Source: Halovenus carboxidivorans | Lineage (GTDB): Archaea; Halobacteriota; Halobacteria; Halobacteriales; Haloarculaceae | Assembly (NCBI RefSeq): GCF_009831575.1 | Contig: NZ_WUUT01000001.1 | Location: forward strand, 62,001-126,000 | DNA: 64,000 nt | Direction: 5' to 3' | Shown: one piece after another, positions 50,739-62,835 of the stretch | How positions within the stretch are numbered: the stretch's first letter is position 1 | Layout of the letters: every line of letters begins with the position of its first letter | Translations under genes and position numbers: made by a program | Notes under the pieces: model-generated | The model's input: the letters and a program-made list of their open reading frames with translations, nothing else | Told to the model about the DNA's origin: nothing | Databases searched by the model: none

Positions 50739-51692
50739 CTACCGAAACCGATCCAGCCCGCTCTGTCGGCGCTGTCGCCCCTCCGGCTCCGGCTCCCACG
50801 GCGACCGCGTCGAGCGGATCTCGTCGAGATCGATCTCGGGTGGCTCGGCCGGCTCGAACCCCTCGCAGTCCTCGCCGCAGGTCCGTGCCGCGTCGACGAC
50901 GCCACCCTTCCACGGGCAGATTGGCAGACCGTCCTCGTCCGGTTCGATCCGGCTGCACGGCGGCAGATCGTAGCTCCGCCAGCCCTTGCCGTAGGCCCGC
51001 TCGGCGACGCGGCGGCGCTGGCGCTCGATCTCTTCCGGGGTGACGACCGCGATATCCGTCCGCGCGCTCCGCCGGTCGAGCAGTTCCACCCCCGGCTCCC
51101 CGACCGGTAGCTGCTCGGGTTCGCGGATCACCTCGCGCTCGCCGCTGTCGGGATCGAACCGCCAGATCCCGACCGGGTCCGGAATTCGGTTCTCGTGTGC
51201 CCCCGTGACGTAGGATTCGGTCGCGAGGACGACCTGGTCGAGCAGGGCGAGTTTCACGTCCGTGAGCAACTGCCGTTCGAGCGCGCCGGGCGACCCAAGG
51301 TCGGGCTTGTTCTCGATGCCGAGCAGACGGCCGTACCAGTCGGGATAGCGGGTCGTCTGCCGGACGTACGTCTGTCCGCCGCGTCGTTCGCGCTCGAAAA
51401 ACCCGCAGTCGACGGCCGCCGCACAGACCTCCTCGGCGCGTTCGGGGTGGCCGTCGTAGACCTCCGGCCAGGGGCGGGCGGTCCCCGGACCGACCGCGCT
51501 CTCGATGGCCGCCGGCGGGATCGTCTCCTCCGTGATCGCGGCTCGCTCGTCGAACTCGGGGCCGGGTTCGACCGCGACGATGTCCATCACCCGCGCCCCG
51601 TGACAGGAGGTGCCGAGCTGGCGGCTCAGTACCTCCGCACGCTGGCGTTCGAGGTGGGCACACAGCGATAGCTCGAAGCCGAACTCCTGCAC
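50739..51692 (-). CDS. DUF5787-like protein, candidate PD-(D/E)XK nuclease
   Basis: The 317-residue protein starts at GTG (MQEFGFELSLCAHLE). Asp37 in VMDIVAVEPG and Glu127-x-Lys129 in GIENKPDLG, followed by QLLTDVKLALLDQVVLAT, give the D...ExK order of PD-(D/E)XK nucleases. A C-terminal cysteine quartet (246, 259, 272, 276) could hold a metal or Fe-S cluster. The overall sequence matches what I know as DUF5787, a family restricted to haloarchaea. The nuclease assignment is my inference, not an established function. The gene has no nuclease or helicase neighbour; a zinc-finger membrane protein lies upstream on the same strand. Confidence 0.75.
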   Translation of the reverse strand: MQEFGFELSLCAHLERQRAEVLSRQLGTSCHGARVMDIVAVEPGPEFDERAAITEETIPPAAIESAVGPGTARPWPEVYDGHPERAEEVCAAAVDCGFFERERRGGQTYVRQTTRYPDWYGRLLGIENKPDLGSPGALERQLLTDVKLALLDQVVLATESYVTGAHENRIPDPVGIWRFDPDSGEREVIREPEQLPVGEPGVELLDRRSARTDIAVVTPEEIERQRRRVAERAYGKGWRSYDLPPCSRIEPDEDGLPICPWKGGVVDAARTCGEDCEGFEPAEPPEIDLDEIRSTRSPWEPEPEGRQRRQSGLDRFR

Positions 51693-61707: not shown

Positions 61708-61887
61708 ATGGCAGACACAGTGACCGCAGAAGATCCGATCACAGGCGAGGAAATCGAGGTGCCGGCAGACGTCGAAGTCGGCGAGATCATCGACAGCCCG
61801 GTGACGGGCGCGGAACTGGAAGTAATCAGCGTCGATCCGGTCGAACTGGAGGAAGCGCCGGAGCTGGAAGAAGACTGGGGTGAGTGA
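61708..61887 (+). CDS. argW: LysW-type amino-group carrier protein for arginine synthesis
   Basis: The 59-residue protein carries the biosynthetic intermediate on the side chain of its C-terminal Glu. It ends in EEDWGE, the diagnostic LysW/ArgW tail. The first ~35 residues align with the LysW zinc-ribbon, but the cysteine pairs are replaced (EDPITGEE and SPVTGAE where CxxC motifs are expected), so it has no zinc site. The neighbours argX, argC and argB confirm its role. The TATA box at 61675-61684 supports the start. Confidence 0.93.
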   Translation: MADTVTAEDPITGEEIEVPADVEVGEIIDSPVTGAELEVISVDPVELEEAPELEEDWGE

Positions 61888-61935: not shown

Positions 61936-62835
61936 ATGAACGTTGGAATCTGTTACTCACGGATCCGTCGCGACGAGAAACTGTTACTCTCGGAACTGCG
62001 GGACCGTGGCCACGAGATCGAGAAGATCGATGTTCGCAAACAGACGTTCAGTCTCTCGGAGCCGCCCGAAGCCTTCGCGGACGTGGACGTGCTCGTCGAC
62101 CGCTGTCTGGCGACGAGCCGGAGTCTCTACACCACGCGGTTCGCCGAGGCCTACGGGATTCCGATCGTCAACAGCGCCGAGACCGCCGCGATCTGTGCGA
62201 ACAAGGTCAGAAACAGCCTCGCGCTCGAACGGGCGGGCGTCCCCACGCCCGCGACGGACGTGGCGTTCACCAAGGAGTCGGCGATGGACATCGTCGAGCG
62301 GTTCGGCTACCCCTGCGTGCTCAAGCCGGTCATCGGCTCGTGGGGGCGGCTGATGGCGAAACTCGACTCCGAGTCCGCGGCCGAGGCCATCTTCGAGCAC
62401 AAGGAGACGCTGGGCCACTACGAACACAAGGTCTTCTACATTCAGGAGTTCGTCGACAAGCCCGGCCGGGACATCCGCGTCGTCGCGCTGGACGGCGAAC
62501 CGGTCGGCGCGATGGTCCGCAAGTCCGACCACTGGCTGACCAACGCCGCCAAGGGTGCCGAAACCGAGGAGTTCGAGTTGGACGACGAGGCCCGCGAACT
62601 CGTCGCCGAGGCCAGCGCGGCCGTCGGCGGCGGCCTGCTGGGCGTCGACCTCATGGAGACAGGGGAGCCGCAAGGCTCCCAGTCGAGCGGGCAGGATGCC
62701 CGCGAGAGCGGATACACCGTCCACGAGGTCAACCACAACGTCGAGTTCAAGGCGCTGAACGAGGCCGCCGACGTGGACGTGCCGGCGGCGGTCGTCGACT
62801 GGCTGGAAGACACCGTCGCGGGGGTGGAGTCATGA
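61936..62835 (+). CDS. argX: Glutamate-LysW ligase ArgX
   Basis: ArgX (LysX family) is an ATP-grasp ligase that attaches glutamate to the C-terminal Glu of ArgW. Its 299 residues contain the RimK-like features NSAETAAICANKVRNSLALE (about residues 78-97), the ATP-binding PCVLKPVIGSWGRLMAK (about residues 121-137), YIQEFVDKPGRDIRV (about residues 166-180) and the metal-binding end LLGVDLMETG...YTVHEVNHNVEFKALN. Between METG and YTVHEVN lies an in-frame 16-residue insertion (residues 243-258) that other LysX proteins generally lack and that is encoded by two hairpins. The stop overlaps the argC ATG (ATGA). Confidence 0.93.
   Translation: MNVGICYSRIRRDEKLLLSELRDRGHEIEKIDVRKQTFSLSEPPEAFADVDVLVDRCLATSRSLYTTRFAEAYGIPIVNSAETAAICANKVRNSLALERAGVPTPATDVAFTKESAMDIVERFGYPCVLKPVIGSWGRLMAKLDSESAAEAIFEHKETLGHYEHKVFYIQEFVDKPGRDIRVVALDGEPVGAMVRKSDHWLTNAAKGAETEEFELDDEARELVAEASAAVGGGLLGVDLMETGEPQGSQSSGQDARESGYTVHEVNHNVEFKALNEAADVDVPAAVVDWLEDTVAGVES
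62662..62709 (+). repeat. In-frame 48-bp insertion of two perfect hairpins in argX
   Basis: Two perfect 7-bp stems: gggagcc-gcaa-ggctccc (62663-62680, GNRA-type loop) and gcgggca-gga-tgcccgc (62687-62703). Together with flanks they encode residues 243-258 (GEPQGSQSSGQDARES), a polar segment where the ATP-grasp fold needs only a short turn. Confidence 0.7.

Follow-up and report, generated by a model that had tools for sequence, protein, structure and literature searches.

The window analysed here, a stretch of 64,000 nucleotides (nt) from the haloarchaeon Halovenus carboxidivorans, contains the gene argX, and two adjacent perfect hairpins lie within its coding sequence. The initial annotation had taken this pair for a small palindromic element that inserts into genes without destroying them. 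Our analysis supports that proposal: the segment is probably one copy of a repeat family found throughout the archaeal class Halobacteria, with 52 located copies inside genes. Genes were called with a simple codon-score finder of our own, and the features at the locus are as follows.

61936..62835, + strand: argX/lysX, the host gene, an open frame for an intact ATP-grasp ligase of 299 amino acids
62662..62708, + strand: twin-hairpin element, bounds from covariance model R1 (26.1 bits, filters off)
62663..62680, + strand: hairpin 1, GGGAGCC-GCAA-GGCTCCC, a perfect stem of 7 base pairs (bp) (sequence, hairpin scan and fold)
62687..62703, + strand: core of hairpin 2, GCGGGCA-GGA-TGCCCGC, a perfect 7-bp stem with a GNA-type loop (sequence and hairpin scan)
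62683..62707, + strand: hairpin 2 with its outer pairs TC/GA (sequence, fold with a 2x2 loop, and the same R1 columns)

With both stems perfect and TIGR02144 above its cut-off for LysX (289 bits against 275.6), the presence of twin stems inside an otherwise intact argX is confirmed. The protein matched 3vpd and 1uc8 in phmmer searches. The insert reads TCGAGCGGGCAGGATGCCCGCGAG. GA at 62685-62686 and GA at 62704-62705 form a symmetric tandem G.A mismatch flanking hairpin 2, whose loop is GGA; G.A pairs are absent from hairpin 1, which is closed by a GCAA tetraloop. The insertion had been described as a 48-bp in-frame block. It is indeed a multiple of three, but the net gain is 14 codons (42 nt) relative to the common haloarchaeal short form METGDSYTVHE, and 45 nt in Natrialba. 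A 14-residue gap against Thermus 3vpd agrees with this figure. AlphaFold2 predicted residues 245-256 as a disordered turn between two strands (predicted local distance difference test below 50), and the remainder of the protein, including an intact core, as mostly confidently folded (predicted template modelling score 0.82). The gene lies between argC and a small LysW-like carrier gene; the latter, at 61708-61887 between argH and argX, encodes an acidic protein of the LysW type ending in EDWGE.

The insert region folds at -34.1 kcal/mol (z = -4.8), and none of 200 shuffles folded equally well. Adjacent stems of at least 7 bp arose somewhere in 22 of 120 Markov-3 copies of the window (about 18%), so the stem pair alone is not decisive. 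When the same peptide was recoded by the codon usage of the window, 3 of 5000 trials contained twin 7-bp stems, and 11 of the 5000 folded at least as well as the native sequence. Twin stems at this place in argX are therefore unlikely to be due to chance.

Related repeats of roughly 45-65 nt, each with two hairpins, were found in other genomes; most family members measure 50-65 nt, and the window copy 47 nt. In aligned members, hairpin 1 consists of about 7 bp, GA/GA, 2 bp and a GNA-type loop, and after a short linker hairpin 2 follows with 2 bp, GA/GA, GCGGG/CCCGC, GA/GA, 2 bp and again a GNA-type loop. GNA triloops such as GCGAAGC are unusually stable DNA mini-hairpins. Among 21 members the stems differ yet stay complementary: standard pairing is kept in 96% of pair cells, 12 of 18 pairs have changed on both sides, and 0 of 500 shuffles paired as well, a test that is strongest for the variable hairpin 1 because the members were picked by similarity. 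Since GA is kept in both arms and is mismatched only when they fold, a folded single strand, DNA or RNA, would matter at some step. Ten element-carrying loci, including the argX region (L009), had no match in Rfam at E values up to 1.

Model R1 was built from repeats located elsewhere than the window insert. It matched the insert over positions 1-62 of the model, with E = 1.8e-7 over 161 nt in the unfiltered search (scaled to the window, about 7e-5, and to the whole genome, about 0.004), and this was the top R1 score in the window. By this match over both hairpins, the insert can be placed in the Halobacteria twin-hairpin family. Other R1-like matches at 51120, 13825, 39628 and 63166 scored 13.7-17.3 bits, lie in coding sequence and lack a twin-hairpin fold, for which reason they were rejected as chance.

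Members occur interspersed, in tandem or nested in most Halobacteria genomes. A 62-nt DNA query, the argX insert of isolate QH_10_67_22, matched 120 of 194 of them, some with arrays of 60-62-nt units. R1 matched 97 of 116 sampled genomes of the class and 17 of 18 of the genus, counts that are lower bounds since a limited number of candidates was scored per genome; in other classes of the phylum, 1 of 69 genomes had a match, at a borderline E of 1e-4. Halomicrobium katesii alone gave 61 matches. The window's own genome holds 10-16 copies (16 R1 matches at E up to 0.1). The expectation that similar copies occur elsewhere was thus borne out in this genome and in others. When the own genome was searched with the 88-nt argX segment, only weak partial matches and no close second copy were obtained, so that copies are recognisable by structure only. 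One compact intergenic relative (L211) reads GCGAACGGGCAGTGCCCGTGAG, compared with the argX sequence given above. The pattern GAGCGG..CCGCGAG gave 64 matches in the own genome against 41 in a reversed control and was discarded as too loose; it led to an array at 363.6 kb of contig C1. This array (C1:363585-363697; L210, 2039-2098) consists of tandem 53-nt twin-hairpin units directly 3' of a gene.

Identical 60-62-nt units stand in differing contexts and genomes, and in one case (L246) an element occupies the apical loop of another. Six plasmid records and no phages had family matches, so the family is not obviously spread by either. At G007, two relatives that are about 95% identical have 40 nt in place of a 498-nt repeat block; this was rejected as a clean empty site because the boundary is not clean. 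Dispersal is well supported, and mobility, which had been suggested for the argX hairpins, is what we infer from its patterns. Composite intergenic blocks of 100-500 nt with many G.A hairpins were also seen (L229-L231, L242); several of them finish with a T-rich, GAGGGCTTTC-like stretch, perhaps a terminator. In two 200-kb samples, the counts of G.A hairpins were too low for statistics. At another locus (L154), a small cassette of two genes resembling a toxin-antitoxin system is bordered by copies at 1502-1561 and 2769-2828, which belong to a longer repeat (over 100 nt).

The turn of ArgX is occupied in some relatives and vacant in others, a difference that has arisen repeatedly. In 90 haloarchaeal ArgX proteins, the turn is short in 53 (typically METGDSYTVHE) and holds a plain non-hairpin linker of about 6-11 residues in 23; the other 14 contain a twin-hairpin insert, in line with the forecast that relatives would lack the segment. 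The converse outcome, a segment in every ArgX without palindromic DNA and no further copies, was not what we found. The ten different twin inserts examined each contain two perfect stems of differing sequence. On an argX tree computed without the insert, the twin label required 11 changes at this one site, and strong branches force at least five of these; three carriers of twin hairpins, the window genome, LUM.6 and SHR40, sit next to one another. Close pairs differing in the insert were found in Natrialba, Halostella/QS_9 and Halorussus. The clearest empty site is in Natrialba, where a 45-nt insert is present in N. chahannaoensis but not in N. hulunbeirensis or Natrialba SSL1, with flanks about 92% identical over 300 nt on the left and 85-87% on the right. 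The inserts of Natrialba, Natrarchaeobius and Halobiforma are 98-100% identical in flanks of 79-87% identity; horizontal spread among them is only suggested by these values, because some flank windows are equally conserved. In LUM.44 (L055), a twin-hairpin element has apparently inserted in the second hairpin of another. The LUM.6 ArgX (L039/L010), at the end of a 5.1-kb contig, terminates in an aberrant YYGHQVKQQQQLK, which probably stems from misassembly there.

Copies inside genes have one orientation and mostly one frame. The sample of 201 located copies was drawn from strong matches, and tandem copies in it are not independent; 52 lie in genes (about 36 different genes), all in sense. Of the copies no more than 25 nt from a stop codon, 20 were sense and 2 antisense, and away from genes and stops orientation was random (55 sense, 59 antisense). 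In 43 of the 52, the frame used gives peptides of the type E-x-[ED]-R-S-E-x-S. Computed on 113 intergenic copies, the other five frames all gave a net positive charge and were less hydrophilic than this one. Copies abutting a stop often complete it with their first base (TA+GCGAGG). The orientation bias can thus be explained by selection on protein charge, frame and stop codon, with no RNA role needed. Besides ArgX in many lineages, hosts include an ABC ATPase, ScpA, an M20 peptidase, a CheA-like kinase, MutS, a class I aminoacyl-tRNA synthetase and a prolyl oligopeptidase, and these proteins probably keep working. In two Halobaculum species (L083, L097, 2873-2940) the N-terminal tail of ArgC is a full-type twin-hairpin element, and the site is empty in H. 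gomorrense (L089). In ArgH of Halorussus litoreus (L044, 816-870), a conserved stretch is interrupted in frame by an insert resembling the element, GHASEASVTSSQAKRSDGV, so that argH, argX and argC of one cluster have each been struck in some lineage. In several genera, between one and three elements lie at the N-terminus of a ScpA-type protein, directly past the start codon (L153, L157, L160, L165, L176; L178 nearby), which appears to be a recurrent hot spot.

We consider it probable (about 0.77) that the window segment is a copy of a dispersed, class-wide twin-hairpin family of Halobacteria whose genic copies sit at tolerated sites in an acidic frame. The best reading of the family is a dispersed palindromic element without a transposase of its own, kept in genes only as a tolerated acidic linker. 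Some host- or trans-encoded activity would copy the repeats, in the form of a folded single strand, to other locations. Genic insertions would be retained only where they fall in an exposed turn, at a terminus or at a stop codon, and only if their orientation and frame encode an acidic, hydrophilic linker or rebuild a stop codon, and the ArgX segment would then be a tolerated disordered loop and no essential catalytic part. Several observations weigh against this account. The window insert is a compact, divergent member without inner G.A pairs that default filters miss; its genome-wide significance is only moderate, and R1 E-values are rough. All nine located copies in the own genome are intergenic, which leaves argX as the sole coding copy recognised there. 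No target duplication was seen at the Natrialba filled and empty sites, no insertion event was seen directly between strains, and no mobilising enzyme was found for the family. Part of the family size could come from array expansion and gene conversion instead of transposition.

Ordinary variation in loop length, combined with a chance GC-rich hairpin, would fit the 23 plain linkers at the same turn and the frequency of 7-bp stem pairs in simulated windows. It is largely refuted, and we regard it as very improbable, given the rarity of twin stems among synonymous recodings, the two perfect stems in all ten different argX inserts, and the match of the window insert to an independently built dispersed family. 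One ancient insertion into ArgX, inherited vertically with compensatory stem changes and many losses, agrees with the adjoining positions of the window genome, LUM.6 and SHR40 and with the near identity of the Natrialba, Natrarchaeobius and Halobiforma inserts. The 11 changes of the twin label, of which at least five are forced, the close pairs that differ, and the dispersal of the same repeats elsewhere in the genomes make this history unlikely.

Two further explanations were weighed. The repeat could be of the REP/REPIN or PATE kind, with an IS200-type (Y1) transposase moving it. This would suit a hairpin-based, high-copy repeat nested in other palindromes, as SMR-A is in PATEs of Haloquadratum (PMC3119063), and Y1 transposases are common in the class (PF01797 matches in 81 of 116 genomes). 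Yet twelve genomes with at least 20 copies have no PF01797 match, and copy number does not correlate with the transposase (Spearman -0.15, p 0.10); dependence on Y1 was rejected on these grounds, and we think this origin improbable. Alternatively, the hairpins may act in mRNA, through stability, 3'-end formation, pausing or protein binding to the tandem G.A, with selection on RNA keeping the sense orientation. The all-sense copies in genes, the 20 of 22 near stops and the G.A mismatches conserved on both arms, meaningful only in a folded strand, speak for such a role. Against it, orientation is random away from stops, peptide charge, frame and stop-codon restoration account for the bias, most ArgX function without the element, and Rfam gave no match. 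RNA-level action, which had also been raised for argX, thus found no positive support, and we doubt it.

Two adjacent hairpins, dispersed and regarded as mobile, are known from fungal and algal mitochondrial DNA. These double-hairpin elements share the two-hairpin anatomy of the family and are organellar; to our knowledge they are not regular in-frame, sense-only coding insertions. REP, BIME and REPIN sequences are high-copy imperfect palindromes, often intergenic and clustered, and REPs are extragenic and tied to RAYT transposases. The family differs in its many coding copies (52 of 201) and in that the Y1 transposase is dispensable, as the twelve copy-rich genomes without PF01797 indicate. 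Among haloarchaeal repeats, PATEs and SMR-A of Haloquadratum walsbyi are likewise transposase-less, palindromic, nested in other repeats and partly unexplained in their mobilisation (PMC3119063). SMRs are 80-110 bp long with terminal inverted repeats, PATEs have near-terminal palindromes of the IS605 type, and no in-frame coding copies of either were found in the passages covered (PMC3119063). A long inverted repeat spanning one unit from end to end, as in SMRs or MITEs, is absent from the family, whose two hairpins are separate. Coding palindromes of nematomorph mitochondria also place stable inverted repeats inside functional coding sequence, but their arms encode conserved protein regions (PMC6649704), whereas here a segment is added in a tolerated turn. 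Closest in behaviour are the palindromic elements of Rickettsia (RPE-1 to RPE-3) and Wolbachia, which lie both between genes and in frame within genes that are not destroyed, and encode a conserved peptide at tolerated surface sites (PMC3767692, PMC10969869). The family shares in-frame insertion with dispersed copies, argX being intact and its protein presumably functional. RPEs are bacterial and 100-150 bp long, and the shorter, GC-rich repeats of Halobacteria with their two G.A hairpins fall outside that length. The Rickettsia analogy of the initial annotation therefore holds for behaviour and fails for sequence, length and architecture, and the repeats apparently form an undescribed archaeal family. 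In the open-access literature we found no haloarchaeal description of it, only PATEs and SMRs, most subscription papers being outside this scope.

Most accounts of in-frame palindromes altering proteins concern Rickettsia and Wolbachia; in a 2024 review, the idea that other prokaryotes share the process is speculation only (PMC10969869). A bolder proposal, tentative and in our estimate somewhat short of even odds, is that the family is an active, class-wide palindromic mobile element with no Y1 requirement, copied via folded single-stranded DNA, a general source of in-frame acidic loops and tails in essential proteins and the archaeal counterpart of the Rickettsia coding palindromes. The family occurs in the majority of genomes of an archaeal class and offers sites that are naturally either empty or filled, host proteins with structurally solved relatives, and genetically tractable organisms. 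It makes testable both the spread of short palindromes without an obvious transposase and the gain of acidic loops in halophilic proteins. For annotators it carries a caution, in that such segments in haloarchaeal proteins are repeat-derived.
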